The notes beneath the pieces were generated by a model. The model was not told the DNA's origin, did not search any database, and saw only the letters and a list, made by a program, of their open reading frames with translations. Below are positions 1,612 through 57,438 of a stretch of DNA of 64,000 nucleotides, one piece after another. Each line of letters begins with the position of its first letter. Position 1 is the stretch's first letter. This DNA is from Sedimentibacter sp. MB35-C1 (GTDB lineage Bacteria; Bacillota; Clostridia; Tissierellales; Sedimentibacteraceae): contig NZ_CP133188.1 of assembly GCF_030913635.1 (NCBI RefSeq), positions 496,001-560,000 of the forward strand, given 5' to 3'. Both the position numbers and the translations under genes were made by a program.

Positions 1612-3654
1612 TCATATACTCTCTAATAATGACATTCCTCTTTTATATTTAGAAATATCAGAAATTTTTAGCTCTTTGATTTCTCTCTCCATTTCATCAG
1701 TTAATATCTTTAAATTAACTCGATGTTGATATTCAGATTTCAATTCTATTTCTATTTGAAAATCTTCTACTCCTTCATCATTCATGTTTTCACAATATCT
1801 GACGTTATCATAAACCATTTCAAATTTAATGTCATCATGCTCCATTATTATTGGTACTCTAAAATTTTTGATTATAATGCTTGGTTTCAAATCACTAATT
1901 GAACTCAATTCAATTATATGTTCTTTTATAAAGTCAACATCTAAATCGTCTTTTCCCTTAACTATTTTCTTAAATTCAAACCTTTCGCTCTGAGAAGAAT
2001 CTGTATCACTATTCATTGGTACTGGTATTTTAATTGTTAACTCATATTTTTCATTCTTTTCGCGAATTCTTAATGTATAATCATTTCTTTTCAGTTGCAA
2101 GTCTTCCGTATCATAGTAATAATCAATTTGATTTTTCTCATCCAATTTTTTTACCACATAAAATTCTTGATTATTAATAAATTTATCAACTTCTTTAAAA
2201 ACAGACTTGGAATTTAAAATATATTTTTTCTCTATTTCAATCGTATTTCGTAAATCATAATTATTTAGAATCATTTTTAAATCTTCTATAAGTTCACACA
2301 TATTTTCAATCGGCATTTTCCTTAAAATATTATAATTAATAAAAATAATATTTTTATCATCTTTCCAAATTATAGAATCCCCTTCCAACTTATTAAAAAT
2401 AATTGATACTTGAGATAAATCGCTAATAATACCGTTGCTTTGACGAATCCAAATATTTTCTTTGTTTTTTTTATATGCAGAAAATCCTGGTTTATTCTCA
2501 ATCCAAAAATATTCTTCTCTTAAATCTATAATATTATACCCATATTGCTTAAATAATTTCATTATATCCGTTTTCAACATTTGTAAATATTTATCACTAT
2601 TATCTAATGCGTCTACCTTCTTTGCTTTACTCCGTGTCATAAGCGAATTGCATAATTGTTTCAAAATTACATCATCTTCATTCCTCCATACAGAAAAAGC
2701 ATATTGAAAAAGTGAATCATCCATTTCTACGTAGTCCTTAACCGTAATTTCACATTTAAATAATTTTCTTATCAGTTCAGGGCAATAATTCAATTTTTTC
2801 TGGCCAAATAATTCATATGCCCTACTTAATATCTTTTTAATAAGCTGTTCCATTTGGATTTTAAAGTCATGGTAATATACAACTTTTTGCATTTGATATC
2901 TAGCTAGAATATACGTTTCTATATCTTGTACATATTTTTCTGGCACGCAAACATAATATTTATCATCTTGCACAGTTATTTCTAACGAAGTAATAATTCT
3001 TTGAATATCAATATTACCAAAGGTAACACCACACTGCATACTATCCCTTAATAAATAATCCATTCTATCTGCATCTAACTGGCTGCTAATTAAAGATGAT
3101 AAAACATTAAACATATCTACTTTTTCTAGTATATAAACATCTTCTTCTTTTTTTATTTTCTTTTGGTTGCTAATCAATTCTATGACTTTCTCAGGAATAT
3201 CTTCTCCGAAGTTCTTTACTATAGCTTTATTTACATTGCTATCTTTTGATTCTATGATTCTTTTCGTCCATTCCTCATGTTTTATATTATCGTGTATTTG
3301 AGGCAAAATACCCTCAAAAGCATGTGAGAAGGGGCCATGCCCTAAATCATGTAATAATGCAGCTAATAGAATGATATTTTCTTCATTTTTCGTAATATTA
3401 ATATGTAAAGTTTCAAAGTTCTCTCTAAAGTGAATAATCATTTGTGTCATAATGTAAAATGTACCTATAGAATGTGAAAATCTAGTATGGTCAGCACTAG
3501 GAAAAACCATATTTGCAATTGATAATTGCTTAATTCTTCTCAATCTTTGGAATTCTAGAGTATCTATTACCTCTAAAAACTCATTCGGAATAAATATATC
3601 CCCATGAACAACATCTCTAATAATTTTACCCTTTCTATTGAACCTATTAATCAT
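1612..3654 (-). CDS. HD-domain phosphohydrolase fused to C-terminal CYTH domain
   Basis: This 680-residue protein has two recognisable enzymes. Residues about 15-280 form a SAMHD1/dGTPase-type HD domain: TRFSHSIG with His61, HDLGHGPFSH with His102-Asp103, and LDADRMDY with Asp194 supply the four metal ligands. Residues about 471-675 form a CYTH domain (triphosphate tunnel family), beginning with the signature ExEKK (Glu473, Glu475, Lys476, Lys477), followed by a YYDTxDLxL strand, LRIR, LTIK and a late EIEIEL strand. HD enzymes of this type release tripolyphosphate from dNTPs; CYTH proteins bind or hydrolyse such chains, so the fusion makes biochemical sense. The ATG at 3654 is preferred over the upstream TTG (3672) because AGGAG lies 10 bases before it. 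It is divergent from a second HD gene. Substrate is inferred. Confidence 0.85.
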   Translation of the reverse strand: MINRFNRKGKIIRDVVHGDIFIPNEFLEVIDTLEFQRLRRIKQLSIANMVFPSADHTRFSHSIGTFYIMTQMIIHFRENFETLHINITKNEENIILLAALLHDLGHGPFSHAFEGILPQIHDNIKHEEWTKRIIESKDSNVNKAIVKNFGEDIPEKVIELISNQKKIKKEEDVYILEKVDMFNVLSSLISSQLDADRMDYLLRDSMQCGVTFGNIDIQRIITSLEITVQDDKYYVCVPEKYVQDIETYILARYQMQKVVYYHDFKIQMEQLIKKILSRAYELFGQKKLNYCPELIRKLFKCEITVKDYVEMDDSLFQYAFSVWRNEDDVILKQLCNSLMTRSKAKKVDALDNSDKYLQMLKTDIMKLFKQYGYNIIDLREEYFWIENKPGFSAYKKNKENIWIRQSNGIISDLSQVSIIFNKLEGDSIIWKDDKNIIFINYNILRKMPIENMCELIEDLKMILNNYDLRNTIEIEKKYILNSKSVFKEVDKFINNQEFYVVKKLDEKNQIDYYYDTEDLQLKRNDYTLRIREKNEKYELTIKIPVPMNSDTDSSQSERFEFKKIVKGKDDLDVDFIKEHIIELSSISDLKPSIIIKNFRVPIIMEHDDIKFEMVYDNVRYCENMNDEGVEDFQIEIELKSEYQHRVNLKILTDEMEREIKELKISDISKYKRGMSLLESI

Positions 3655-4340
3655 TAATATATCACTCCTCAATATATTTTTTCTGCAATTAAAAATTTAT
3701 CATATACTTTATTTTAACAATATACCTTCTAATAATACTATATATGAATTCCTTTATCTAAATCCAACTTCTAACGTTTTCAGTATGCGGCCTATCTTTT
3801 TAAATCAAACACTTCCACTCTGTTTACATTACTGATAATTTATTCCTTAATTAAATATCCACATCATCATCCAAACATTTGCTCGTTTTTAAGTATATCA
3901 CGTTCTTTTCATACTTACAATATATTCCCATAATGAAATAAATTTCCACATAGCTTTTCACAGTTTATCCACAAGGAAAACAATTTTCAAATAAACTTGC
4001 TATTTTTCTTTCCTGATATGTTTTTATTTTATCTACTTTTCAAGAACGGGGTTTATCTGCAATGTATTTTATTTACTGTTTTTTGGTTAATAAAAATACT
4101 AATTGAATACTTGTTGATTACTTAAATTATTATAAAAGGTATAGTTTAAGTACAGAAATTATCCTTTATTATTTACTTTTAATGAACTATAGTATAAAAT
4201 TAATAAAAAATCTTTTATTGCTAATCATAAAGACATTTGTAAAATGAAAATATATTGTTTAGCAAATGTTTACATTTTACTTTTTTTGGTATATAATATT
4301 ATTTATTATTAATATTTTAATATTATATGAGGTTGGTATT
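3655..4340. promoter_or_regulatory. Divergent intergenic region with DnaA-box-like motifs
   Basis: The region separates the two divergent HD genes, so it should hold both promoters. It contains a perfect TTATCCACA at 3965-3973 and close variants at 3856-3864 (ATATCCACA), about 3942-3950 (ATTTCCACA) and about 3956-3964 (TTTTCACAG). These resemble DnaA boxes. No gene-like frame is present. Confidence 0.4.
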
Positions 4341-6365
4341 ATGGGGAATAAAACAATTCAAATAGCGGATACTATTCATGGTTCTGTTAAACTCAATTCA
4401 CTCGAGAAACAGGTTATATCTACACCAATATTTAACAGACTGCACAATATATCTCAAAATTCTACTGCTTATTTAACTTATCCTACTAATAGAACAAAAC
4501 GATTTGAACATTCAATAGGGACTATGCAACTTTGTGGTAATATGTTTATGTCTAGTGTTGCTAACACAAAAGAAGAAATTATAGATAATTTTTTTGTTAC
4601 TATCGAAAGTATAATTGATGAACAGATTAACACATCATTAGATAAATATACAAACTATAAAATTAAAATAGGCGATAGAAATTTTGATAAGTCAAAAATT
4701 ATAAAATATAAAAAAGCAAAAATTAATGAAGAATATAATAAATACATCCCTATTAACGTTAAAGATACCCATAAAAATTTATATATAATTTTATTTCAAG
4801 CTATTAGATTAAGCGCATTACTTCATGATGTTGGTCATCCTCCATTTAGCCATATTACAGAATTTGCATTAAAAGATGTTTGGAATGATATCATCGAAAT
4901 TGATGAAGAGACTAGAAATAAAAGACAAAAAGAATATGTTTCAATAATGAAAAAATATTTTGATACACGACAAGATTTACATGAACAAATTGGGAATAAA
5001 ATTACAAGTAAGGTTATTAATGATATTATTGAAAACTTAACCGAGGAACAATCAAAAGACACTACATTACTTGAACAACAATTGTTTAAAGTAATAGTAG
5101 CTGAAATAACTTCTGCAATATTAGAAGAAAAGAAACCAATTTTTTCTGATTTACATAGAATAATTGATGGCACTCTTGATGGGGACAGATTAGATTATGT
5201 TAGTAGAGATCCATTAAATTCAGGATTAAATGTTGGTTGTATTGAATATGATAGAATAATAGAAAGTATGAAATTAGTTAAAGAAGGGGATAACTATTTA
5301 TTTTCACCTTCAACTAAAAGCATTGATACTATTGAAGATTTTTTTAATAGAAGATGGAAATTATACAAACAGATTGTTTATCATCACAGAGTAATAAAAA
5401 CAGACTTTTTATTACAGGATTGTATTAAGGAACTTGCTAAATCATATTTAAATGTAGATGATTCTAAATCCAAAGATGAAAACAGTCCATGTGAGAATGT
5501 TAAGATTTTAGATTATAATATTTCAAGTATATGGAAAGCTATAGAAGATAAGCCTTCATATTTCTACTTTTTTAATAGATTAATACAATGGGATGATGGT
5601 TGGTTAATGGCCATTTTAAAAAAACATTATTTTGATGAATATTCAGAAAATTTCGAAAATAATATATCTTATAAATTGGAAGAATTACTTTCTAATAAAA
5701 AATATTATTACTCACTTATAAAAAGAACCGAAGATTTTATAAATATAGATAAGGCTGTAGCCATATCAATGCAAAAGGAATATCATAAAATAAATAGATT
5801 AATTAATGAAATTGATAAAAAACAAAAAGAAGATAAAAATATTAAAGTCCCTTTAGACAAAATATTGAAATATGCGTCAGAATTAGAAGAAACAATTAAA
5901 AATGCCTCATATGAATCTCCTTTACCAAATGATGGATTCATATTAAGGAAAATCGATAAAGTATATTCCAATTTATTTAATGATGACTGGTTGTCAGATA
6001 TAATTTTAAATTGTGTAAATAAGATGAAAAAAGATACTACTTATAATATAAAAGATGCATTTGTGGTAATAAAAAAGGTAAAAGTTGGAATTAATGGCGG
6101 AAAAAATGCAAAGCAAGGTGGACTAGGAGTTTATACCTCAGTTGGTGAGTACTTTGAAGTGAAAAGTTTCTTAGATTTATCTAATGTTGGAAAAAGTATT
6201 ACTATGGAAATGAATTTAATGCCATTGTTTTATCTATATGTATTTAAAAATAATGGACATGAATATATGGATTTTAATAAAATAAAAATTGAATTAGGTA
6301 CTATGATTGGTGATGATGTAGCATCAGTGATTATAGGAGAATTAACTAAATTAATGAAAATTTAA
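4341..6365 (+). CDS. HD-domain dNTPase-like protein
   Basis: The product is 674 residues. N-terminal motifs match the SAMHD1/dGTPase-like HD superfamily: DTIHG (10-14), KRFEHSIG with His57, LLHDVGHPPFSH with His162-Asp163 and His166/His171, and LDGDRLDY with Asp280. Compared with the HD-CYTH protein across the intergenic region, it has a long insertion between the first His and the HD motif and no CYTH domain. The ATG at 4341 is chosen because GAGG precedes it; the longer frame upstream only adds a hydrophobic, non-conserved run. The stop overlaps the region of the next small gene, so the two are probably cotranscribed. A phosphohydrolase acting on nucleotides is likely; the actual substrate is unknown. 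Confidence 0.8.
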   Translation: MGNKTIQIADTIHGSVKLNSLEKQVISTPIFNRLHNISQNSTAYLTYPTNRTKRFEHSIGTMQLCGNMFMSSVANTKEEIIDNFFVTIESIIDEQINTSLDKYTNYKIKIGDRNFDKSKIIKYKKAKINEEYNKYIPINVKDTHKNLYIILFQAIRLSALLHDVGHPPFSHITEFALKDVWNDIIEIDEETRNKRQKEYVSIMKKYFDTRQDLHEQIGNKITSKVINDIIENLTEEQSKDTTLLEQQLFKVIVAEITSAILEEKKPIFSDLHRIIDGTLDGDRLDYVSRDPLNSGLNVGCIEYDRIIESMKLVKEGDNYLFSPSTKSIDTIEDFFNRRWKLYKQIVYHHRVIKTDFLLQDCIKELAKSYLNVDDSKSKDENSPCENVKILDYNISSIWKAIEDKPSYFYFFNRLIQWDDGWLMAILKKHYFDEYSENFENNISYKLEELLSNKKYYYSLIKRTEDFINIDKAVAISMQKEYHKINRLINEIDKKQKEDKNIKVPLDKILKYASELEETIKNASYESPLPNDGFILRKIDKVYSNLFNDDWLSDIILNCVNKMKKDTTYNIKDAFVVIKKVKVGINGGKNAKQGGLGVYTSVGEYFEVKSFLDLSNVGKSITMEMNLMPLFYLYVFKNNGHEYMDFNKIKIELGTMIGDDVASVIIGELTKLMKI

Positions 6366-7545: not shown

Positions 7546-8574
7546 TCAAGGTATCTCGTGAAACCATACTGCATCATAAACAATATCACAGTTTTCTATG
7601 AACCATTGACTCCACAAAGTAGGATGTGCATCTATTAGTCGATTCTTATTTTCGTATTTCAAATACTTTATTAATAATTTCCTCACTGATAATTTTATTT
7701 GTTCGATATCATCTTCGTATATTTCATAAAAATCCCACCATTTTGATTTTGAAGGATGCGCTGTAAATCTACACCTTAGTAAGTAAAGACGTTCCAAGTT
7801 ATGCTTATCAGTTTCATCATAAAATTTAAGTTCTTTATAAACATATTTGCACATTTCTTTTCGCTCTTGTGTAGGAGCATTTATTCGATTTTTTATAGAT
7901 TGAAATATCACATCAACCATATTGTCAGCTGCGGTCAATGCTTCTTCTGTAAATTCTGAACTGTATAATTCCAAAGACCTTGTATAATAGAATATGGATT
8001 TATTTATAAAAGGATCAAGTGCATTAATCAATCTCAAATATCCTAAGGTTTTTAGGCTTAATTCTGAAGTATTTTCTTCTATGAAAGTTTTAAACTTTTC
8101 TATTTCTTGTATCGCGTATTCATCACATGTACTTTTTAATGTATTTCCTCTAAAATCTGTAGGTATATCAGTAGACAATGCTATGGCTCCAATCATATTA
8201 ATTTGATAACTTCTATAAATATATTGTGATATAAAATGGAAAAGAATATCTATTTGTTTGGAAATAAAATTGTTCTTTGAAATATTTTTCCATCCATTAC
8301 TCCAATTAGGACAAACTACTCCTACCACGAGAGCATTCTCCTCATCTGAATAATAGCACATCATATTGTGATAAATAAAATTTATATTTAGGTTTGATGT
8401 GTTTTTAAAATCTCGAATTAAGAAAAGGCACTCACTGTCTCTCTGAGGAAGTATATTGGTAACAATATTATTAAGAGTAGATTTAAGTGACTCTACCTTA
8501 TTTTTTGTATTTTCAAAGGAATTATAGTACATGCAAATTTTGTTTTTAAAATCATCATATCCCAATATTTTCAC
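7546..8574 (-). CDS. Unknown protein with HEPN-like C-terminal motif
   Basis: The 342-residue protein starts at a GTG. The N-terminal half is mixed alpha/beta with no family I recognise. The C-terminal half is helical and contains Arg267-x5-His273 (RCRFTAH), which fits the Rx4-6H signature of HEPN ribonucleases, followed by a Trp-rich segment and a helix. The next gene upstream on the same strand also ends in an Rx4H motif, so the two may act together. HEPN assignment rests on one motif and helix pattern, so it is tentative. Confidence 0.5.
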   Translation of the reverse strand: MKILGYDDFKNKICMYYNSFENTKNKVESLKSTLNNIVTNILPQRDSECLFLIRDFKNTSNLNINFIYHNMMCYYSDEENALVVGVVCPNWSNGWKNISKNNFISKQIDILFHFISQYIYRSYQINMIGAIALSTDIPTDFRGNTLKSTCDEYAIQEIEKFKTFIEENTSELSLKTLGYLRLINALDPFINKSIFYYTRSLELYSSEFTEEALTAADNMVDVIFQSIKNRINAPTQERKEMCKYVYKELKFYDETDKHNLERLYLLRCRFTAHPSKSKWWDFYEIYEDDIEQIKLSVRKLLIKYLKYENKNRLIDAHPTLWSQWFIENCDIVYDAVWFHEIP

Positions 8575-8713
8575 CTACCATATTTTAATCGCAAAAACAA
8601 TTATCTAATTTAAATATTGCTCACTTTTTTATATTAATTATAAGAATTACTTAAGATATTAAAGCATAATTAAGTAATTTTCTAAATTCATACTACATAT
8701 GGTTTTCGATAAT

Positions 8714-9706
8714 TTAATAATCATACTTTGGTTCAAAACCAAAGACTTTTCCAAAGCCTTGATAAGAACGATCTACCGCTATCGTTAAATCTTTTATTAT
8801 TTTGAAAATCTGGTCATCCAATATGCTTAAATTCATATTTCCCGTATGAACGATTTCGTCCCTAATATCTACTATTTCTATAATTGAATCAAATAATGTT
8901 TTTTTCCTTCTATTATACGGCTTTCTTAACCATGCACTTATATCAATATTCGGATTAATCATACGAAAGTTTTCTGCAATAACATTTGGTCTTTGAAACG
9001 AAAGACTATCTACAAGTAATCTTTCCAAACAAGCCTCATGTTTAATAACCTTTAAATAGTCTGTTGATGAAATTCTGCAATTTTTCAGTGCTTTTTCTGA
9101 TATACAGTCTGAATATTTCAGTATAGAAATATATGAATTTCGAAAATAAGATTCCCAACATCCAATTAAGTACGGAACAATCATATTATCCGAAAGTATT
9201 CTTGGATTTATATCATCTAACCAAGCAAGTCCACTAGATTTCTCGCGAGCAATGTCTCCAGTCAATTTCCGTGATTCAAGATATATTTTAGGTTTAATCA
9301 TTGCATTATTAAATTTCCATCTATCTACATATAATGAACAGGCAACTTTTGATGGTTCTAATACATCAACCTTAATATATCTATTTGTACCTTCATCTGT
9401 TATAAATGATCCCCCAAACAAGCTTTTTAAAAGGCTGATAGTTTTATTCTGCCAACTCAAGTCCCAATAACTACGCCCTGCTCTTGTACGTGTCTGAACA
9501 GAAATACAATCAGCCTCTCTAAACACAAATAGCTCAAGTTCTACGAATGTAATGCAGTCGTCGCTTCCAAGCCATATATAACTCCCTATTTGATTATCTA
9601 TTTTTAGAGAATCTCTTGCTTTCTGAAAACCAAGCAATTCAATGACCTCAAAGAGTCTTTTAATTGAAGTTGAAAGTGGCAACTTATTTTCAGAACAATA
9701 ACTCAT
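8714..9706 (-). CDS. HEPN-domain-like protein
   Basis: The protein has 330 residues, with an ATG start preceded by GGTGGTGAG. Residues about 175-200 (CWESYFRNSYISIL) and 270-300 resemble the two core helices of HEPN domains of the abortive-infection type. Arg282-Asp-Glu-Ile-Val-His287 is a canonical Rx4H catalytic motif, so RNA cleavage is predicted. The first 160 residues are beta-rich and unassigned; they could be a sensor or binding module. It is 139 bases upstream of the other HEPN-like gene, on the same strand. Confidence 0.6.
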   Translation of the reverse strand: MSYCSENKLPLSTSIKRLFEVIELLGFQKARDSLKIDNQIGSYIWLGSDDCITFVELELFVFREADCISVQTRTRAGRSYWDLSWQNKTISLLKSLFGGSFITDEGTNRYIKVDVLEPSKVACSLYVDRWKFNNAMIKPKIYLESRKLTGDIAREKSSGLAWLDDINPRILSDNMIVPYLIGCWESYFRNSYISILKYSDCISEKALKNCRISSTDYLKVIKHEACLERLLVDSLSFQRPNVIAENFRMINPNIDISAWLRKPYNRRKKTLFDSIIEIVDIRDEIVHTGNMNLSILDDQIFKIIKDLTIAVDRSYQGFGKVFGFEPKYDY

Positions 9707-9784
9707 TTATCTCTCACCACCCTTATATGTATTACTATATTCAAAAATAAAACTTTTTGCCCTTTATCGTTATTATAATTCTAT

Positions 9785-9892
9785 TTATATAATCTTCTCA
9801 ACCTTTGAAACATCTTCTAAATACAATAATCTAAATTCCTTATATTCTTCTTTTGTCTTTAATTCATTTTTTTGTACTATTCTATCCAGCAT
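9785..9892 (-). CDS. Short open frame, possible relic
   Basis: A 35-codon frame encodes a charged, helical peptide ending in VEKII. No convincing ribosome binding site precedes the ATG at 9892. Together with the broken frame just upstream it may be the tail of a decayed gene rather than a functional small protein. Confidence 0.25.
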   Translation of the reverse strand: MLDRIVQKNELKTKEEYKEFRLLYLEDVSKVEKII

Positions 9893-9917
9893 CAATTAGA
9901 ATTTCACAACCACTCGA

Positions 9918-10142
9918 CTATTTAGATTTAATATAAATTTTTGTCGTATCTATTAATAATTTATCAATATCAATTTGTTTCAATTTATTATAGAAATCAA
10001 GATTGTTCTCATCAAATGGATTAATCTTAAAGCATCCTGCATATCCAACTAGGGTTAGTGTGTTTATTGAATTATCATTATTTCGTCAAAATCGCTAAGA
10101 TCTAGGTATCGAGATATACTTCTTAGATATTTATTTCGAGAA
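9918..10142 (-). pseudogene. Decayed protein-coding fragment
   Basis: Two overlapping minus-strand frames carry protein-like sequence: one from about 10142 to 10082 (ending SDFDEI) and one from 10085 to the TAG at 9918 (starting RNNDNSINTL). They would join by a single frameshift near 10082. No start codon belongs to the fragment, so it looks like the C-terminal remains of a lost gene. Family unknown. Confidence 0.35.
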
Positions 10143-10619
10143 TCAATTCTCAAGGTTATTCCACTCGGTATATACTTTGTTGGTTGCGTGAAATTTTGTA
10201 TGCGGTTCACGGTATTTTTCTATATTTGCTGAGTTATTTACTAACTGTCTGATTTCGTCATGATATAGTTTTTTGAATCGTTTCTTATCAACTTTTTCAT
10301 CAATATATTTCGCGCAAGCTTCATCATAAGCATTGAGTACATCTTCGTGTGCAGATGCAATCAGTGCAGCGTATACTTGGTCATCTTCGTTACCTATCGC
10401 CTGTATTACTTTATCTTGATAACGGCTTCTTGCAGATGAAATCATCTCTCGTATTTGCATTTCGACTTGACCTTTTTGCATTTCATTAGCCATTTTGGTC
10501 AAATCATTTGCGGTGCCAGCTAAAGCGTTTCCTTTTTGAGCAGCGTTATAGCTTACTGTCAGAGCTATAACGCTAACAATTACCGTAAGTGAAGTTAATA
10601 TCACCATCGCCATATCCAT
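10143..10619 (-). CDS. Small single-pass membrane protein, unknown
   Basis: The protein is 158 residues from the ATG at 10619, which follows an AGGTGA site; a TTG three bases upstream is less likely. Residues 4-24 form one hydrophobic membrane helix. A helical, Met/Gln/Lys-rich linker and a charged cytoplasmic helical domain follow. The gene lies 8 bases after a small cytoplasmic protein on the same strand, so they form a two-gene operon. Neither is recognised. In a defence island, a membrane-anchored helical protein is a reasonable candidate effector, but this is inference only. Confidence 0.6.
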   Translation of the reverse strand: MDMAMVILTSLTVIVSVIALTVSYNAAQKGNALAGTANDLTKMANEMQKGQVEMQIREMISSARSRYQDKVIQAIGNEDDQVYAALIASAHEDVLNAYDEACAKYIDEKVDKKRFKKLYHDEIRQLVNNSANIEKYREPHTKFHATNKVYTEWNNLEN

Positions 10620-10627
10620 CAAGTCAC

Positions 10628-10879
10628 CTACTTTTTATCCTTAATCCTACTTTGAACCAAATTCACCAACTGTAAAAAAGCTGAGTTGTCCGATTCAAAG
10701 AGAAGAAATCTATCTGTTTTAGGGTCATAGCCATCCGAGTGTAAACACATAAATAGAAAATCTAATTCTTCTTGGGTCAAGTCAGCTTCTTTTATTTTTC
10801 GTTCAGCCTCTGATGTGTTTTGATTATTTAATAATTGCTTTATTTCGAGTGAAAATTTATACAATTTATTCTTATTCAT
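10628..10879 (-). CDS. Small acidic protein, unknown
   Basis: An 83-residue product is preceded by AGGAGG at good spacing. It is predicted all-helical, with a DLTQEELDFLF segment and a middle GYDPKTDRF loop. It is the first gene of a tight pair with the membrane protein at 10143-10619. No domain is recognised; an immunity or regulatory partner for the membrane protein is one possibility. Confidence 0.6.
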   Translation of the reverse strand: MNKNKLYKFSLEIKQLLNNQNTSEAERKIKEADLTQEELDFLFMCLHSDGYDPKTDRFLLFESDNSAFLQLVNLVQSRIKDKK

Positions 10880-11147
10880 AACTTCCTCCTGCGTTTCTGC
10901 ATATAATTAAAAGATTTACTTAAAACCAAACAATGGCACTATATAATAAATCATTATACAGCAATCTTCCACAAAATTCCACATAAAAATCTGTTAAAAT
11001 TCTATAAAACATGTCGTCATGCACCGTAGTAATTAAAAATCATCTCTTTTATCTGCCATATACTCTCGCAATCATATAGAAAACCACTGTGTTTTTCGCA
11101 CGTCCTTATAACTAGGCTGTTCTTTCTCCACATTTTGTAGCATCCAT

Positions 11148-12572
11148 CTAAATTCCATGCATAATAAACTGTTTTACCTCTTTAACAGTATAGGTTCCAC
11201 CAACCTTTGAATGCAAAATCATATGGCAATTGGGACAAACCGGTATCAAATCTTTTTCTGGGTCTACCTCATACTCATCATCTATTTCGTTTAATGGTTT
11301 GATATGATGAACATGAATTTTACCTTCAAAAGCCTGACCGTAGAATTCTCCAAAATCCAAGCCACAAATTTTACATTTTATTCCGTGTATTTTAATACAT
11401 TCTTCTCTTGCTTTTGAGTTGCGTTCATATGCGTTTACAACAATTTGCTTTTTACATCCTTCAACATATTTACCTGATTCAGATTCAATAACTTCTTCAG
11501 GTATTCTCACTTGCTCTTTAGAATTGATTAATGATATAACTAGATCCTGTTTTGAACTATCGATCTTTTGCTTTGATTGGGAAAATGCAGTGAAATTTTC
11601 ATCTATTTCAGAGAGTTCTTTTGCACTAATTGGTTCAAATACTTTAATTGTGTTGACATTAAAATAATATGCACCCATATAGATGCCTTGTATTGGCTCT
11701 TTGAATTTTTTAACTTGTATCAAGTTTGCACTTGCTATTATTTGGTTATCAATTTGAAATAGGACTAACGTACCTTTTGATGCAGCCATCCCAGAAGTCC
11801 TAAAAAGATATTCACCATGTTTTTTATTAGCCAACTCATTTAAAAAGAACTTCTTTTGTATTTCCTGATAGGTCATATTAGGGAATTCATATTTTGCACT
11901 CATAGGTAATATCCGAATTTCCTTAAACTTTGGATTGCTCCAATTATAGAGAAACGTCATAAATATATAGTTATTAAAATCTTTGAAGAGTTTATGTTCG
12001 TTTTTAAATTCTATTAACAACTGACGTTTGTCCTCAGTACTATTTTCACTTGTTGGAAGATTTAGCTTGTGAATGAAATAATCTACATGCTCAGGAGCAA
12101 ATACATTAAGATATTTTTCTGGGTAATATGTAGCTAAAATTTTGCTCTTAAACATAGGGGATAGAGAGTTTTTGGATATAGATTCTACGTCAACTATTTC
12201 CCCGGCTTTTAATAACTCATTAATTGACACTTTAATGTTATCAAAAGCACCCTCGACATTTAAAGTCTCATCCCATTTTTGAATTGTTTTATAAGCTTGT
12301 TCCACTTTGTTATAATATAATCCAAATTTCTTATCCGCTGTAGACCCACCTTTAATACTTCCGAGCTCACTTAATTTGGTTTCAAGCCAATAACAGAAAG
12401 ACTCTTTGCCTTTTCCAACTACATAATCATCGAGTTCCATATTTATAATCTGATTTTTAGGAAAGAGCTGAATGAATTTTAATCTTTCTTTCTCACAAAT
12501 CTTATACTTTTTTTCGTAACTCTTTAGTTCTTTATTTTTAAAATTCATTACTGCTTGTACTAAGTTATTCAT
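11148..12572 (-). CDS. HNH restriction endonuclease, possibly modification-dependent
   Basis: The 474-residue protein starts at the ATG at 12572, 7 bases after GGAGG; a longer in-frame start at 12659 has no such site. The C-terminal 90 residues are a classic HNH nuclease with zinc cysteines: CKICG, then VHHIKPL, then CPNCHMILH. The middle region (about 240-330) has the strand pattern of a PUA/EVE-like reader domain (GTLVLFQIDNQIIASANLI). The N-terminal region resembles those seen in McrB-like and related restriction proteins. The arrangement reader-then-HNH suggests a type IV enzyme cutting modified DNA. No methyltransferase is adjacent, which fits. Confidence 0.7.
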   Translation of the reverse strand: MNNLVQAVMNFKNKELKSYEKKYKICEKERLKFIQLFPKNQIINMELDDYVVGKGKESFCYWLETKLSELGSIKGGSTADKKFGLYYNKVEQAYKTIQKWDETLNVEGAFDNIKVSINELLKAGEIVDVESISKNSLSPMFKSKILATYYPEKYLNVFAPEHVDYFIHKLNLPTSENSTEDKRQLLIEFKNEHKLFKDFNNYIFMTFLYNWSNPKFKEIRILPMSAKYEFPNMTYQEIQKKFFLNELANKKHGEYLFRTSGMAASKGTLVLFQIDNQIIASANLIQVKKFKEPIQGIYMGAYYFNVNTIKVFEPISAKELSEIDENFTAFSQSKQKIDSSKQDLVISLINSKEQVRIPEEVIESESGKYVEGCKKQIVVNAYERNSKAREECIKIHGIKCKICGLDFGEFYGQAFEGKIHVHHIKPLNEIDDEYEVDPEKDLIPVCPNCHMILHSKVGGTYTVKEVKQFIMHGI

Positions 12573-12665
12573 AATCTTCCTCCATTGCCATAATAAAAAC
12601 ATTACATTTTCAAATATCTCTGGTATAACACTACAATCTTTGGGTATTTTAGCATTCATATTTCT

Positions 12666-12887
12666 CTAACATTTCTTTTTTCTAATCACTGTAAGCTCAT
12701 TAATATGTATAAAAAAATTTCTTTCAGCTCTGCTCATTCTAACATAGACTATTTTATGTTCTTCGTTCGTATTTAAACCTAGGTTTAATAACAAGTCCTT
12801 AATATCCTTAGCACCTATGAGTATAACATCATACTCAGAACCTTTTAATATTGTCGCAAATAAACAAGTTTTAAGTTGCCTCAGCCT
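12666..12887 (-). pseudogene. C-terminal fragment of UvrD-type helicase
   Basis: The frame ending at 12666 carries two superfamily 1 helicase landmarks in the right order: ATILKGSEYDVILI (motif V region) and IVYVRMSRAERNF (motif VI). Nothing of the rest of the helicase is present. It begins immediately after, and in frame with, the stop codon of the gene at 12888-13151, and has no start codon. It is therefore the tail of a deleted helicase such as those found in Gabija or other defence systems. Confidence 0.7.
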
Positions 12888-13151
12888 TTATTCATTGAGA
12901 AATTTTTCAACTCTGCTTCCAACCATACTAGCAAAAATACGCGGTGTTACATCATTAGGTTGGATTCCCATATCTGTTATACAATTTCCAGTGATTTCAA
13001 CACGATTATTATAATCAAAATACCTCCTATAAGTATGCTTGTGCGTGTGATATGTCAGATAAACATCCGTTCCAATAATTTCAACATCCCAAAAGCGTTC
13101 TTTTGCAACCTCATGTACAATACGTTCAAATTCATATTGACTAATCTCCAT
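12888..13151 (-). CDS. Small protein of unknown function
   Basis: An 87-residue product starts at the ATG at 13151 with GGAGG 8 bases upstream; an earlier in-frame start at 13226 lacks a site. It has an N-terminal helix then a beta-rich part with THKHTYRRYFDYNN and a C-terminal helix. Its stop is followed in the same frame by the helicase fragment, suggesting a deletion brought them together. No family recognised. Confidence 0.55.
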   Translation of the reverse strand: MEISQYEFERIVHEVAKERFWDVEIIGTDVYLTYHTHKHTYRRYFDYNNRVEITGNCITDMGIQPNDVTPRIFASMVGSRVEKFLNE

Positions 13152-13737
13152 ATTCCATACCTCCTGTTCTCCTAATCTTTCCTTTATTGTCAAAACCCTA
13201 ACTATCAAGTAATTTATATCATTCATACAACCGATTAACTACAAATGTATAACAAAATTATTTTTGGCTTATTAAAACAATCATAACTTATTATTACAAA
13301 AAATTCCATATGTTTTTATATAAATGTTGATTTATGAAAAATATATTAATAGTTTAAATCATATATATATTAGTCAGAAAAGCTATTGAAAAGTCATTTA
13401 ATGATTTGTCATTACCATTTACAAACATTTTATACATTTTGTCTTTTTAAAAAGTAATATTAATATATGTCAATAAAGTATACTTCATTGGCATAATAAA
13501 AATTACAATTTAACCGTCCCATATAACTATTAAAAGCAATTATGAGACGTATTACAACCCGTCTTAACTCTAATAGAACATAATACTATTACACCATTTT
13601 AACAAAAAAGAACATGATTTTGACACCATGCCCTTGACCTTTACCTATTACAACTCAATTATTTTTCTTTTAATCTCATACTTCATTGTTACGTTATCTC
13701 ATTGTTTTAAAAATGCACCTAATTTACTAACACCGTT
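13152..13737. other. AT-rich intergenic stretch
   Basis: No gene, RNA or clear repeat is seen in this 586-base stretch. It separates the small-protein/helicase relic from the AbiE-like pair. Confidence 0.5.
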
Positions 13738-14514
13738 TTATATAGTTTCTTCCACTGTATCATGATAATATATATTTTTTATTCTGTTTATCAATTCATT
13801 AAAACTTACATTACTAATACCAAGATTTTTCAAATCAACTTTTTCTTTTAAAATCATATCCATAAATTTAATCAAATCTTCTTGAACCTCATCATTTATT
13901 TTGACTTCAACAGAAGGTGAAATATATATCAATAATCTAAAAATATCATTCTTATGCTTAGTTACATCCTTTGAGTCTATGTACTCACCGTTTTTCTTTC
14001 TCTCAAAAAGATCCATCCACGCTTTCATTTTAAATAGCAGAATATATTCAATTGATAAAACTGATACGCCATCAATAACTGTCTTTCCTTGTACCAATAG
14101 TTCATAATATGCATCATTAAGTAAAATAGCTGATAAGCTAGTAATATTATCACTTATATGTATTGGAGTAAGCAAAGAATCAAAGTGTAGTTTCATTCTT
14201 TCTGACTTTCTACTAAATAGTTCTATCATTGCTGGGAAATCAGTACGTATGGGTTTTGAAAATCTATAGAATTGATCTTTATCTGTACTTTTCTGTTTAT
14301 GTTGATATCCTCCATCCTCGATAAATTTCCAGAATGCAATACCAAAGGTTTCATCTAATGCCTCAATCAATAGAACCATATCCAAATCCTTAGTTGCTCT
14401 AAAAGAAGCACCTATATCATCCAATAAAACATCACAAGCTGTTCCGCCTATAAATACATATTGTCCTTCATAATCGCCAAAATACTCTTTAAATTTATCT
14501 AACCCTTGTACCAT
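13738..14514 (-). CDS. Nucleotidyltransferase, AbiEii-like toxin candidate
   Basis: The 258-residue protein carries the nucleotidyltransferase signature near its N-terminus: FIGGTACDVLL (about 22-32) followed by TKDLDMVL with the Asp pair that binds metal. It overlaps the upstream regulator gene by 16 bases, so the two are translationally coupled. A wHTH regulator upstream and nucleotidyltransferase downstream is the arrangement of AbiE-type (type IV) toxin-antitoxin systems, in which the transferase blocks growth by modifying an RNA or nucleotide target. Sequence match to AbiEii itself could not be tested. Confidence 0.65.
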   Translation of the reverse strand: MVQGLDKFKEYFGDYEGQYVFIGGTACDVLLDDIGASFRATKDLDMVLLIEALDETFGIAFWKFIEDGGYQHKQKSTDKDQFYRFSKPIRTDFPAMIELFSRKSERMKLHFDSLLTPIHISDNITSLSAILLNDAYYELLVQGKTVIDGVSVLSIEYILLFKMKAWMDLFERKKNGEYIDSKDVTKHKNDIFRLLIYISPSVEVKINDEVQEDLIKFMDMILKEKVDLKNLGISNVSFNELINRIKNIYYHDTVEETI

Positions 14515-15488
14515 AATTCACCCTTCAAACTTTCTTCTATTGCTTGCTCAATTCTTTCATCAGAAGTTCCACTAAATGATGCTGCTAATGAAGCTAAATC
14601 AACCACATTATTTTTAGCAAATATCATTGGATCGTAATCCCAAATCTGTAGTTCCATTAAATTCATGTCCTTAATCTTATATATATCCTTTTCAATATAA
14701 TCCATTAAGTCATATAATTTTTGTTTTGATATAGCTCTAATAGATCTTGCTGACGGATTAATCATAGAATTCATTGACAACGCCTCTAATCCAGCAATTG
14801 GAAAATCATATGCTATATTATAAGCTGACTGATCCATATAAACAACTTTATTAACTGGATTTTTTAAATATTTGTTTCCGATGTCAAAATATTTTGTATC
14901 AGCAATTCTTTTATAATTTTTGCTTTTTCCTGTTTTTCCGCCTATATCATACTTTAATATTCCTAACGAGTATAAGTCATTTAAAGCCCTCGATGCTGTC
15001 ATTGCTGTTGTGTTTAATTTTTTAGCCAATTCAGTTGTGTTTAAAGTCAAATCCTTATTATATAAAAAATATAAAAATACAAGTTGGGCAGTAGAAGAAA
15101 ATTTTTCAATAGATTTTGAGTTTTTATCAATCATCTTCTTTAAATCCAATCCTAAAAACGGAAGATACATTTGTCCATTTTCAACTATAAATGGAATGCG
15201 ATTTTGAATTAACGCTTTTCTTCTATATGGAGAAATATTGTTATACAAGAAAACCAAATTATCATTACTAATCGCTTTAAGAGTTTTCATGTGTTTTTTT
15301 ATATCATTTATTTTAGGAACATCATTAATAAACTTTATTAAAATACATTGATTCCCAAGTATATTAAGATCATAAAAATCGTATATTTCTAATAGAAATA
15401 GCGGTAACTTATTTTCGTCATTCCAAGTATTTATAGTTACATTTTCATCAATATTTTCTTTTAAATACTCATTGACTTTATATAACAT
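14499..15488 (-). CDS. Winged-helix regulator, AbiEi-like antitoxin candidate
   Basis: The product is 329 residues from the ATG at 15488, 7 bases after GGGAGA; a TTG at 15503 is an alternative. A central MarR-like winged helix is visible (about 140-195): LTLNTTELAKKLNTTAMTASRALNDLYSLGIL. The N- and C-terminal parts are unassigned. It precedes and overlaps the nucleotidyltransferase gene. Repeated AATGTTACATT motifs directly upstream are good candidates for its autoregulatory operator. Confidence 0.65.
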   Translation of the reverse strand: MLYKVNEYLKENIDENVTINTWNDENKLPLFLLEIYDFYDLNILGNQCILIKFINDVPKINDIKKHMKTLKAISNDNLVFLYNNISPYRRKALIQNRIPFIVENGQMYLPFLGLDLKKMIDKNSKSIEKFSSTAQLVFLYFLYNKDLTLNTTELAKKLNTTAMTASRALNDLYSLGILKYDIGGKTGKSKNYKRIADTKYFDIGNKYLKNPVNKVVYMDQSAYNIAYDFPIAGLEALSMNSMINPSARSIRAISKQKLYDLMDYIEKDIYKIKDMNLMELQIWDYDPMIFAKNNVVDLASLAASFSGTSDERIEQAIEESLKGELWYKG

Positions 15489-15501
15489 AGTATCGTCTCC
15501 C

Positions 15502-15566
15502 AATGTAACACTTTTATTTTAAATATAACACATCAAATGTTACATTGCAAGTAATAATGTTACATT
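15502..15566. promoter_or_regulatory. Candidate operator repeats of AbiE-like pair
   Basis: AATGTTACATT occurs twice at exactly 20-bp spacing (15536-15546 and 15556-15566), with an inverted half copy AATGTAACA at 15502-15510. Two helical turns between copies, immediately upstream of a DNA-binding antitoxin, fits cooperative autorepression. Confidence 0.5.
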
Positions 15567-15659
15567 TGACTGAAAAATATAAAACTTACCTTTAGACAAA
15601 TATTATAATTACCTCAGGTTTCACATTACAAAATCTCCATATAATTTAATAACAAGTCT

Positions 15660-16370
15660 TTATTCAATCAATGAAGACATGTTCTGAAACACTAAATCCT
15701 CCATATCACCTACATTATAGAACTCTCCAAATGCTGAATATATTTCTTTTAGGCATAATGGCTCAACAATACTACCTTCGTACTTTGAAAACGGTCCATC
15801 TGTTTCAATTAAAATTCTATTTAATGGTATCTCTTTTAAAATTCCTCTTCCTTTGTTTGTCCTAAGCATCGCTTGGTTTAAAGAAAAATAATATCCTGCC
15901 CCCACTATATCTGGAATCAGTTCCTTGGGTCCCGTATACCAATGGAAAATCGCATTTTCCACCTTATACTTTAATAAAAGAGTTAACACATCTATTTCAG
16001 CCTGTCTGCTGTGCACTGATAAAATATGCTTATTCACAGATTTACAAATCTGTTCAAAAATTTTCTTTTGTTTGACTTGACTTTTTTCTGTCTTAGCTAT
16101 AGAATAATCCAAACCTACCTCACCAACAAATTTTGTTTCTTTTATGGCATTAACAAACAAATCTTTATTAAACTCATATTCATTAATCAAAATAGGATGG
16201 AAACCAACTGCTAAAAATATTTGTGGTATGATTTTCATCATTAATTTCTGTTTTTCATACAATTCTGGTAAATGGGTGACAAAAATAGCTGAAATATCTT
16301 CACTCATAATTTCTTTAATTATTTTTGTCGGTTTGTCATAAAAATCAATATGGATATGCGCATCTATCAT
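15660..16370 (-). CDS. qatD: TatD-family metal-dependent nuclease (QatD-like)
   Basis: The 236-residue product keeps the complete TatD active site: DAHIH at the N-terminus, GEVGLDY, VHSRQAE, FHWYTG and ETDGPF. TatD proteins are TIM-barrel metal-dependent DNases. The ATG at 16370 follows AAGGTG; a GTG at 16379 would overlap the qatC stop by 4 bases. It is the last gene of an operon whose second gene is a long QueC-like protein, which matches the Qat anti-phage system rather than housekeeping TatD. Confidence 0.8.
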   Translation of the reverse strand: MIDAHIHIDFYDKPTKIIKEIMSEDISAIFVTHLPELYEKQKLMMKIIPQIFLAVGFHPILINEYEFNKDLFVNAIKETKFVGEVGLDYSIAKTEKSQVKQKKIFEQICKSVNKHILSVHSRQAEIDVLTLLLKYKVENAIFHWYTGPKELIPDIVGAGYYFSLNQAMLRTNKGRGILKEIPLNRILIETDGPFSKYEGSIVEPLCLKEIYSAFGEFYNVGDMEDLVFQNMSSLIE

Positions 16371-16375
16371 TATTG

Positions 16376-17581
16376 TCACCTTATATACTTTCTAGCAAAT
16401 ACCTCAAATTCTGATGAAAATTTATTCAACATTTTATATGTCCTTTCATAATAATCTGTTTCATGATAATATTTACGTTTTATATCTAATTCTGAAAATA
16501 TTTGGTCAGAATTAATATATTGATAAAATGTTGTATAATAATTTAATGAGGATCTATATTCATCATCATTCATATCTCCTACATATGGTATCTCATATTC
16601 ATTATCAAATTCTTCTAAATCATATGCTGACATAGAAATTTTTCTTAATAAACATGGTACACAAGTACCACATGATACCTTTGTACTTACATCGTATCGT
16701 TTGTCTTGCATTGATCTGCTGCAAGAACGCGTGTTAATAATATTTTTTTTATAATCAATGCTTAATGAATTTACCATTTCACCTTTTGTTGTAAATAAAA
16801 ATGGATGATTTAATTGAACCTTAATTCCTACATTATCCATTATAGTCTGATATAAATGAATGGTTTTAGGATGTGTCGTTTTAGTGGTTCCACGGGACTG
16901 AAAAGAAGGATTTAAAGTCATAATTCCGTTTTCATTAATATTAACAATGTCAATATTTTCTTTTATAGCAGTCATAATTGCTAATGAGAAAAAGAGCAAT
17001 GATCTTGTTCTTTGTGTATATGTGACTTTATTTTTCTCAACTTTCGAATAAGTTCGCATTCCGGCAATACCAATTCTTTTTTTCAAGAAACTATATACAC
17101 AATTTATAGCTGATGTATCTACATTACTAGTTTTATATCCACAATATAAAGTATTCCTGTTTTCAATTTCATTGTGATAAGCCCCGCAAAATGAATCTAA
17201 ACCTCCTGATAATAAGGATATATTATCAGCCTGAGTATTAATAAAAGTCAGTTGCTGAGATCCAATTTCATACTCTACTGGCTCTATATTTAATTGCCAC
17301 CTGTCTCCATCACCTTCTGTAACAAAATTAGCTAATCTTTCTATTAATTCAAGATTTTCTTTCCACAGACTATGATTTTTAGCATCAACATATGTATTAA
17401 TCTGTATATTTCTAGGACTATCCGATACCCTTTTTATAGATATATCAGCCACATAAATCTCTAAAAATATGTTTAACAAATCTATAGCAATAGATTTATC
17501 CGTTAATATATATGACTCGTTTGGGATTAACTGATTACACCTCAGTTCAATATCACCATTTTTAGCATGAGCAATAATCAT
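16376..17581 (-). CDS. qatC: QueC-like ATPase (QatC-like)
   Basis: At 401 residues it is nearly twice the length of housekeeping QueC. The PP-loop ATP-binding motif SGGLDS is at 125-130 and a QueC-type zinc site is formed by Cys287, Cys304, Cys307 and Cys310 (CGTCVPC). The first 115 residues are an extra N-terminal region typical of QatC. QueC makes preQ0 from a carboxy precursor; in Qat systems the analogous reaction is thought to modify a protein or other target. The stop overlaps the following TatD gene region and the gene starts 12 bases after the preceding gene. Confidence 0.8.
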   Translation of the reverse strand: MIIAHAKNGDIELRCNQLIPNESYILTDKSIAIDLLNIFLEIYVADISIKRVSDSPRNIQINTYVDAKNHSLWKENLELIERLANFVTEGDGDRWQLNIEPVEYEIGSQQLTFINTQADNISLLSGGLDSFCGAYHNEIENRNTLYCGYKTSNVDTSAINCVYSFLKKRIGIAGMRTYSKVEKNKVTYTQRTRSLLFFSLAIMTAIKENIDIVNINENGIMTLNPSFQSRGTTKTTHPKTIHLYQTIMDNVGIKVQLNHPFLFTTKGEMVNSLSIDYKKNIINTRSCSRSMQDKRYDVSTKVSCGTCVPCLLRKISMSAYDLEEFDNEYEIPYVGDMNDDEYRSSLNYYTTFYQYINSDQIFSELDIKRKYYHETDYYERTYKMLNKFSSEFEVFARKYIR

Positions 17582-17593
17582 GTTTATTACTCC

Positions 17594-18235
17594 TTACTCT
17601 TTTAATACATCTTGTAATTTTTGTATCAATTCATTTATCTGAATATCTCCACTATTACATTTTATTATTATTTCAGAAAAGTTCTTTTTTACATAATTTT
17701 TTGAAAATTTCTCAATATTATTATTTAAAATTTCTGCTGAGGTGTCTTTAAACATGCTAATTAGGGCTTCATTTGCATCTTCTCTGATTATCATACTAAT
17801 AAATTTCTCGCAAAATACATTCAAAAATTCTGCAGGGTCTTCGAATTTATTCAAAATCATACTTGTCATAGCACTTTTAAAAGCAGCTAAAATTAATACT
17901 GAATCTATTTCTCCATCTTCATCTACAATATTATCTAAGATGGATTCTATGATTTTCTGAACCTCAATGACCGTCAGTTTCTCATATTGTATATTATACT
18001 CTTGTAAAAACTTATCAATACCTATTTCTTTGGCTTTTTTAAAGCACGCAAAACCGCCTCCAGCAAGTACTGCAAAATCTTTGTCTGCAAAATACCCTTT
18101 AGTTTTTTTGGAACGTAGGGTTTCCAATGCAATTTGAGGAATTACTTCCTTGCACTCTATTGATGGATTTACGTCGATTGTATCCTTCAATAATTTTTTT
18201 ATTTTATCAGAAGTCTTTCTAACTGAAGAGCCCAT
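17594..18235 (-). CDS. qatB: QatB-like protein
   Basis: The protein is 213 residues from the ATG at 18235 with GGAGG 7 bases upstream; a longer frame to 18274 has no site. It starts MGSS, as many QatB proteins start MGTS or MGSS, contains an AGGG motif near residue 73 and is otherwise helical. Assignment depends mainly on position: directly upstream of QatC-like and TatD-like genes on the same strand. The gene upstream should be the QatA ATPase, but only a decayed BrxL fragment is found there. Confidence 0.55.
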   Translation of the reverse strand: MGSSVRKTSDKIKKLLKDTIDVNPSIECKEVIPQIALETLRSKKTKGYFADKDFAVLAGGGFACFKKAKEIGIDKFLQEYNIQYEKLTVIEVQKIIESILDNIVDEDGEIDSVLILAAFKSAMTSMILNKFEDPAEFLNVFCEKFISMIIREDANEALISMFKDTSAEILNNNIEKFSKNYVKKNFSEIIIKCNSGDIQINELIQKLQDVLKE

Positions 18236-18430
18236 ACAAACACCTCCAAACGTAATTTGCTCTAAATATACCATATTTTACATATTATGTCTATATAATC
18301 TATCGATTTAAAGATTATTATCCCTATTATACATACTATCACCCATATAGTGATCTTTTTGTTCATAATAGCATTGTCACATACGAAAAGTAAAAGCACT
18401 GGCTTTAATAAGAGTCATATAAGAGTCTTG

Positions 18431-19015
18431 TTATATCCTGTTATTTGTCTCTCCCCACTCCACGTCTAATGCTTTAAATATCGCCTCCTGTGGTGTTGAA
18501 TAAAATATAATACTAAAAGCACCCATTAAATCTGCCGGCACTGTTCCCATCTCTTATGCAGATGTAATAGGAATTAATACCTTCTTTGCTCCACTATCCA
18601 GACATACTTGCAACACACTGTCTAATTCCTCTAATTTTAAAATAGTTCCATTGATGCTGATATCGCCTAAAACAGCTATACTACTTAAAGTCGGTTTATT
18701 TAATGCAGCTGACGCAATCGCAATTAATGTAGGAAGTGTTAAGTATTTAATAATCCCGATTCCATTTAAATCCTGATAATTGATTATGTAATCCTTTGTT
18801 GTGGTACTGATAGAGTTGCTGATTGAGCAGCCATTAGCTTTTAGGTAATTAAATGCCGTATTAATAGCCTCTTTTGCTTATCTATCTAAACCAAGTCCTT
18901 TGCATTTAAATTATCCATTGCCTGGCAGAACCTGTGTTTCTAAACGATAAACCCCTATCATTCCTGTTTTGCCTCTTGATACGGTATATGCATGACCAGG
19001 ATTACTGATTCCTTC
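18431..19015 (-). pseudogene. BrxL (BREX Lon-like protein) C-terminal relic
   Basis: Translation of the minus strand gives a near-continuous Lon-like protease domain with LTLPTLIAIASAAL, VLGDISINGT and LQVCLDSGAKKVLIP, ending with a QEAIFKALDVE tail, which match the C-terminus of BrxL from BREX phage-defence systems. At least three in-frame stops interrupt it (one at 18554-18556) and the N-terminal AAA part is missing. The relic abuts a Shedu-like fragment on the opposite strand, so the junction near 19010-19040 is a deletion or rearrangement scar. Confidence 0.75.
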
Positions 19016-19052
19016 GCTCCAACTCAGCTTATTTCAGAGTGCATATGAAATT

Positions 19053-19616
19053 ATGCAAGAGATGCTTAAAAGAGCTGATGCTTATAGTGAACAGCATTGG
19101 CAAGAAACGGTTTGTGAGATAGTTCGCATGATTTATCCAAAATATATATTATCCAAACGTGAGCAGTTTGTAGGTGATGATGGCCGGCATAGAAAAAAAC
19201 CTGATTTTCTCCTAATCGATTCTGGTGGATTTGTAGATGTTTTGGAGATTAAAAAACCTAACAATCAGCGGTTGATGACAAAAACTGAGTACAGAAATAA
19301 TTATGTAGCTGATAGAGATTTTTCAGGGGCTATTGTACAAATTGAAAAATATGTACATTGTTTAAATCATGACGGCAAATCGATAGAACAAAAATTTCAA
19401 AGAAGTCTACAATCAGAGCTTCCAACAGGAATTAAAATACGTATTGCAGGACCACAAGGTATGCTACTGATGGGAAGAAGTAAAGGTTTGTCAGAAGAAC
19501 AATTATTTGATTTAGAAATTATTAAGCTACAGCATAAAAATGTAATTGATATAATGACATTTTATGATTTGATGGATAGAATTGAAAATATTATTAAACA
19601 ATTAAGCCATTCTTAA
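19053..19616 (+). pseudogene. Shedu-like (DUF4263) nuclease domain, N-terminally truncated
   Basis: The 187-residue frame matches the C-terminal nuclease domain of Shedu SduA: EQHWQETVCEIVRMIYP at the start and a PD-(D/E)xK core of PDFLLIDSGGFVDVLEIKKP. Full Shedu proteins have an additional N-terminal half. Here the frame continues upstream only into the antisense of the BrxL relic, with no start site. It may still be translated from the ATG at 19053 or 19062, but it is most likely a remnant. Confidence 0.65.
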
Positions 19617-19635
19617 TTATGCCAATTATAGAATA

Positions 19636-57397: not shown

Positions 57398-57438
57398 AGT
57401 CTTATATTTGACTTCATTAAAAGGTTTAACGAATGGGC

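Follow-up and report, generated by a model that had tools for sequence, protein, structure and literature searches.

HD-domain enzymes such as EF1143 of Enterococcus faecalis and SAMHD1 convert dNTPs to deoxynucleosides and tripolyphosphate (PPPi), under allosteric control. The metal ligands of EF1143 are given as H66, H110, D111, and D183 (PMC8177086). Among the CYTH (triphosphate tunnel, TTM) proteins, YgiF of Escherichia coli is reported to hydrolyze PPPi, and the same source questions the presence of PPPi in living cells (PMC3440374). HD dNTPases also occur in a phage-defense context, as single-gene anti-phage dGTPases (the PADLOC dGTPase and NCBIfam NF041026 models) and in Clover, described as a dGTPase (CloA) and a nucleotidyltransferase (CloB) encoded by two adjacent genes in defense islands (PMC12265719). 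In Clover, CloB restrains CloA, and it is the nearest two-gene dNTPase defense that we found.

The locus described here lies in a window of 64,000 nucleotides from Sedimentibacter sp. MB35-C1 (contig NZ_CP133188.1, positions 496,001 to 560,000), and all window coordinates count from its first letter. An HD–CYTH fusion gene occupies 1612..3654 on the minus strand, as delimited by the open reading frame, Pfam, and full-length orthologues. The reading frame is uninterrupted and encodes 680 aa from an ATG at 3654 or 686 aa from a TTG at 3672; a GAGGAG sequence is found 10 nt upstream of ATG 3654, and this ATG is the likelier start. Residue numbers refer to the 686-residue form starting at TTG 3672. 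The first-pass annotation had read the gene as a complete SAMHD1/dGTPase-like HD site joined to a CYTH domain with a full ExEKK signature, and had proposed a search for the two Pfam domains; both are found in the same protein and above their cut-offs (HD PF01966, 37.3 bits against 22, residues 64–171; CYTH PF01928, 52.4 bits against 23.2, residues 478–679, profile positions 2–178 of 179), and the site residues are present, including the signature E479-I-E481-K-K483 in the CYTH part (2224..2238, minus). The fusion of HD and CYTH on one chain is confirmed as real, and a chance or assembly artefact is excluded by full-length orthologues in two further genomes, which have both domains and every site residue.

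The EF1143/SAMHD1-type HD part comprises residues 15–435 (2368..3630, minus), as seen in Pfam, PDB alignment, model, and Foldseek, with the HD motif H108-D-L-G-H-G-P-F-S-H117 at 3322..3351 (minus). In a PDB sequence comparison, residues 16–433 match EF1143 with an E-value of 2.7e-52, and BT4208 and SAMHD1 also match strongly. By alignment, the EF1143 metal ligands correspond to H67, H108, D109, and D202, and the conserved arginine three residues before the first ligand histidine, which marks the EF1143/SAMHD1 type, is present as R64. The AlphaFold model of this part, built on 14 aligned sequences, is good, with 10-residue pLDDT means of 72–97 over most of residues 11–340 and a weaker stretch at residues 161–180 (means of 41–53). 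Foldseek with this model ranks EF1143 (3irh, 4lrl, 2o6i) at positions 1–10, followed by BT4208 and SAMHD1. Fold and metal ligands are thus common to EF1143 (PDB 2o6i, 3irh, 4lrl)/SAMHD1 and to window residues 16–433, but EF1143 has no CYTH part, and its 480-residue chain is matched up to the end region by the HD part alone. The fused proteins also differ from the single-gene anti-phage dGTPases, lying far below the NF041026 cut-off of 400 bits (20.0 bits for the window protein, and 20.6 and 24.6 for its orthologues in genomes G776 and G1179); the match of the window protein to the PADLOC dGTPase model is weak at 27.8 bits. We grade the assignment of the HD part to the dNTPases as strong: with the residues and fold described, it is very probably a dNTPase, its activity being predicted.

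The CYTH part comprises residues 478–684 (1621..2241, minus) according to Pfam, profiles, and Foldseek. Besides the ExExK signature, it carries DxY (D517, Y519), RxR (R535, R537), K548, R605, and ExE (E641, E643). Residues 477–653 match BH2851 in the PDB comparison (E 1.3e-6), and a profile built from 25 stand-alone CYTH proteins only recovers the window protein at 56.6 bits (residues 478–684), G776 at 68.2, and G1179 at 51.6. Conversely, a profile of six CYTH parts finds 2gfg (E 3e-7), 3sy3 (E 6e-5), and YgiF 5a60 (E 7e-4) in the PDB, with a weak match to the putative adenylate cyclase 2aca (E 0.04). The triphosphatases BH2851 (2gfg), GBAA_1210 (3sy3), and YgiF (5a60) share the motifs and are the best profile and fold matches, but YgiF carries a CHAD domain according to PMC4641920, not a dNTPase, and the CYTH of the window protein is C-terminal. 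Structure prediction, which had been suggested as a check, gave a confident HD part only; the CYTH part is poor in the 14-sequence AlphaFold job, where the CYTH row of the alignment was misplaced over the HD region so that this part of the model effectively derives from one sequence, and it reaches a pLDDT of 44 in a two-sequence job. Foldseek with the latter, weak model nevertheless places CYTH/TTM chains at all of ranks 1–7 (TM-scores 0.30–0.35), among them YgiF with tripolyphosphate, BH2851, GBAA_1210, and SaTTM. Together, these matches make a tunnel fold very likely, although the model of it is of low confidence.

PMC8233210 gives motif rules for the subgroups of the family: class IV adenylyl cyclases have HFxxxxExExK and have lost the first Arg of RxR, thiamine triphosphatases have WxRxR, and the second Glu of ExE is assigned to metal 2 and catalysis. 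Two candidate assignments were rejected on these grounds. In the window protein, DL replaces the HF of the cyclases (CyaB) and R535 is kept. In all three window-type proteins, T533 stands where the Trp of thiamine triphosphatase is expected. Lacking HF and Trp and having ExE and DxY, the CYTH part would, by these rules, be a triphosphatase, an assignment we consider likely. It very probably binds triphosphate, to judge from the conserved tunnel residues, and probably cuts PPPi.

Full-length orthologues of the window type were found in two genomes, one of another class (G776, 48% identity over 684 residues) and one of the same order (G1179, 46% over 686 residues). At the 11 HD and 18 CYTH positions that we tabulated, the three proteins do not differ; the table excludes G454 (391 aa). 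Between the window protein and G776, the HD core (59% identity) and the CYTH part (44%) are both better conserved than the linker (38%). The window-type fusion was present in two of 249 genomes of the order (its own and G1179), in one of 113 genomes of the class of G776 (G776), and, in a sample of the Phylum, in its own genome and G776 among 398; in a class sample (n = 391) it occurred only in its own genome, G262 yielding a distant fusion. No window-type fusion was found in 24 other genomes of the genus, and no close orthologue in 289 genomes of another class or in further scans (0/22, 0/58, and, for full-length matches, 0/4 with one HD-only match). It should be noted that the samples overlap and differ in their E-value limits, and that an empty scan of a sample without a known positive is uninformative. 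The window-type fusion is scattered over two Classes and rare in each.

In a class sample of 291 genomes, the window and G262 supplied the only CYTH matches that lie in open frames of more than 600 aa, and a scan of genome contigs with a CYTH alignment returned one stand-alone CYTH, from Ruminiclostridium papyrosolvens. In viral contigs, one scan with the full-length query and one with the CYTH query gave no matches; another full-length scan gave two HD loci and the HD query gave 26, and in these 28 viral HD loci no open reading frame of at least 150 aa was matched by any of three CYTH profiles. Plasmid and phage collections held no record covering 80% of the query, either for the window protein (35 and 13 records matched) or for the G1179 protein (44 and 11 records matched).

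Another family of the class, here f74, encodes more distant fusions: full-length HD–CYTH proteins occur in 5 of the 117 genomes covered, the query genome included, and Pfam confirms the CYTH in both of those scanned. The ten HD positions from R64 to Y206 are intact in all five, but the second Glu of ExE is missing from three, namely G262, G511, and G549. In G511 (L077, 7532–11240), the HD–CYTH gene has dnaE immediately before it and genes for Ppx/GppA and guanylate kinase after it, a gene order that suggests a link to nucleotide and polyphosphate metabolism. A second type in f74 (G503, G530, G479, and G489) was considered and rejected as a set of fusions, the CYTH-like motifs being visible in the alignment only: Pfam found no CYTH in the two of four scanned, and three CYTH profiles matched none of the four. 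The alignment shows the core residues intact in G530, R535 replaced by Trp in G489, and no ExExK in either G503 or G479.

In a tree of the HD parts, whose backbone is unresolved, the window type, f74 type 1, and f74 type 2 each form a supported clade of their own (L023, L029, and L030 were left out, the motif not being matched). In the CYTH tree, for which 27 of 30 stand-alone CYTH loci were picked and from which L118, L138, and the type 2 row G503 were dropped, the CYTH of Ruminiclostridium is placed among the window-type sequences, and a topology that unites the window type with f74 type 1 passes the AU test (p-AU 0.22). One fusion event or several are possible. The stand-alone CYTHs nearest to the window CYTH, at 31–35% identity (L024, L025, L026, L027, and L048), are from Ruminiclostridium and relatives and adjoin a protein of about 495–530 aa. 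A different HD fusion was seen in L030 (1384–3759), an HD protein whose C-terminal part matches PRTase-CE; a search of openly licensed literature for PRTase-CE/HD-CE gave nothing relevant among the matches listed.

Beside the fusion gene, and divergent from it, a second HD gene of 699 aa lies at 4266..6365 on the plus strand, with ATG 4341 as a possible alternative start. Its product, the proposed partner, is SAMHD1-like with an intact HDVGHPPFSH motif, and matches the phosphohydrolases 2hek and 2q14 as well as SAMHD1. In G776, the gene adjoining the fusion is likewise divergent and encodes a dGTPase (PADLOC 226.8 bits; TIGR01353 188 bits, cut-off 152), and in G1179 the fusion is immediately preceded on its own strand, at a distance of 18 bp, by the gene of a 493-aa dGTPase (TIGR01353 243 bits); against NF041026 (cut-off 400), these two dGTPases score 171.2 and 189.7 bits. 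A motif scan of flanks of about 1.5 kb finds a second HD gene adjoining the fusion in all three window-type loci and in none of 25 HD-only relatives, a distribution with a chance of 1 in 3,276 if the loci are independent, the controls not being matched for location in a defense island. The same scan found none in 10 loci of the f74 family, one of which had its own HD motif missed, and none was seen when the flanks were widened to about 2–7 kb around four HD-only relatives, of which three belong to the set of 25. The scan detected the own HD gene in 25/25 Phylum loci, 9/10 f74 loci, and 8/26 viral loci; as it misses variants, the absence of a second HD gene means that none with that motif is present.

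The occurrence of a second HD dNTPase-like gene beside HD–CYTH in all three loci is new here; the first-pass annotation makes no mention of the adjoining gene or of its recurrence. We consider it probable, if not assured, that the fusion and the adjacent gene form a functional pair; a defense island is crowded, so that an adjoining HD gene may also be there by chance. The partners do not belong to one family, comprising two dGTPases (38% identity over 241 residues) and, in the window, another HD subtype. Relatives of the window partner occur in viral contigs, one of them (L109, 3101–5917) just behind a gene that by eye resembles an amidase/endolysin, a position common for prophage cargo. The inverted repeats that lie between the divergent pair in the window resemble, by eye, AT-rich background.

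The HD–CYTH gene forms the left edge of a low-GC stretch (28.3% GC over 1–20300 against 34.6% over 20701–45000), the rest of which, at 7546..20268, is rich in defense genes according to Pfam, PADLOC, and NCBIfam. It includes HEPN-like, 2TM/SLATT-like, and AbiEii-like genes, all weak matches (the HEPN-like and AbiEii-like genes fall below the Pfam cut-offs), a PD-T4-1-like gene with HNH, QatD, QatC, the C-terminal part of Shedu, and a piece of an integrase. PADLOC scores are 172 bits for the PD-T4-1-like/HNH gene, 175 for QatC, 176 for QatD, and 83 for the Shedu (SduA) part; QatD stays below its NCBIfam cut-off (195 of 230 bits). The PADLOC match of the PD-T4-1-like gene (11148–12659, minus) is to its N-terminal part, residues 38–244; an HNH nuclease domain (Pfam 24.2 bits) follows, and the usual PD-T4-1 C-terminal part is unmatched. 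The stretch at 15660–19616 encodes QatD and QatC; at the position of QatB stands a gene that matches no model, and the place expected for QatA holds the Shedu part (187 aa) and the integrase piece. Rfam gave no matches in this island. Elsewhere in the window, a Type I restriction-modification methyltransferase (PADLOC 1085 bits) and specificity subunit lie at 56009–59436 (minus). Other phage-defense genes or fragments accompany all three window-type loci: in G776, a DarT fragment and DarG follow two and three genes on, and in G1179 an AbiH fragment and a UvrD-type helicase lie nearby.

In its HD dNTPase effector, its defense island, and its two-gene arrangement, the locus resembles Clover, but the partner is a second HD gene in all three loci and not a Pol-beta nucleotidyltransferase; an AbiEii-like nucleotidyltransferase, a weak match, lies about 10 kb from the HD–CYTH gene of the window. 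The term CYTH does not occur in the Clover text (PMC12265719). The first-pass annotation had not known the architecture as a described defense system. A search of openly licensed literature found neither a defense role nor a dNTPase partner for HD–CYTH; the bare architecture, however, is already in print, because PMC8233210, citing Iyer and Aravind (2002), states that some CYTH proteins are fused to HD hydrolases. That sentence concerns the same two kinds of domain and names no dNTPase subtype, partner gene, or defense role.

Our reading of the whole is of a bifunctional protein, dNTPase and PPPi-cleaving, that forms with its HD partner a dNTP-draining module, most likely antiphage; we put it forward tentatively, at slightly below even chances. 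The HD part would convert dNTPs to deoxynucleosides and PPPi, and the CYTH part of the same chain would bind the PPPi and split it into PPi and Pi. The HD dNTPase encoded next to the fusion would widen or trigger the loss of dNTPs, and the two-gene module would drain the dNTP pool, most likely stopping phage DNA replication, with the CYTH part disposing of, or sensing, tripolyphosphate. We infer here the substrates, the hydrolysis of PPPi by the CYTH part, the joint action of the two genes, the trigger, and the protection from phage. Depletion of dNTPs with handling of the triphosphate, as proposed in the first-pass annotation, is the best-supported chemistry, and the role in phage defense proposed with it comes from gene context only: as the fusion adjoins a second HD enzyme within a cluster of defense genes, the pair may starve infecting viruses of DNA precursors, and we lean towards an antiphage role. 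The idea that removal of PPPi makes the reaction irreversible is weak, since the hydrolysis of dNTPs is for practical purposes irreversible anyway; other reasons for the removal, such as product inhibition, metal chelation, or feedback, are guesses. Against the module stand the number of loci, only three, and the differing families of the partners. The specific proposal of a two-gene antiphage system, in which an HD dNTPase/dGTPase acts with an HD–CYTH protein that makes and destroys (or reads) PPPi, is in our view rather doubtful.

That three of the five distant fusions keep the HD site but lack the second ExE glutamate argues against cleavage of PPPi as the reason why the two domains are fused in general; in these three proteins the CYTH may only bind or regulate. 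A sensing role thereby becomes the main rival: the HD dNTPase would be controlled by a CYTH part that binds PPPi, an NTP, or a 5'-triphosphorylated signal and is not itself a second enzyme. The Clover dNTPase offers a parallel, being controlled by the triphosphorylated nucleotides dTTP and p3diT (PMC12265719), but all tabulated tunnel positions, both ExE Glu included, are kept in the three window-type proteins, as would be expected for catalysis, and we regard pure regulation as a minority possibility. The gene order of G511, between dnaE and the Ppx/GppA and guanylate kinase genes, would also suit a housekeeping enzyme for dNTP and polyphosphate balance that lies in the defense island by chance, as would the fusion loci of G507 and G463, which lie mostly amid ordinary genes (without a PADLOC scan). 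Such an enzyme is unlikely given that the window-type fusion is rare and scattered, absent from the 24 other genomes of its own genus, and found with defense genes or fragments at all three loci.

The CYTH fold is shared by CyaB-type cyclases, and phosphodiesterases exist among the HD proteins, so a CYTH part that makes a cyclic or other nucleotide signal, with an HD part that removes or answers to it, was also weighed. This idea, of which the first-pass annotation had raised the signal-making part, is disfavored and we consider it very improbable: the HF motif is absent, the Arg that cyclases lose from RxR is kept, ExE is present, the best structural relatives are BH2851, GBAA_1210, and YgiF, and the HD part belongs with the dNTPases. 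For one member of the BH2851 cluster, PMC8233210 moreover reports an inability to make cAMP.

The dNTP-draining module, if borne out, would bear on both families of enzyme. We know of no agreed physiological source of PPPi for the bacterial CYTH triphosphatases. A dNTPase expected to release PPPi, joined to an intact CYTH tunnel on one polypeptide, is a direct candidate for such a source, and if the reading is true, a source and a sink of PPPi would be built into one antiphage system. If the pair of dGTPase and HD–CYTH is antiviral, defense by nucleotide depletion would gain a step in which the triphosphate by-product is processed or put to regulatory use.
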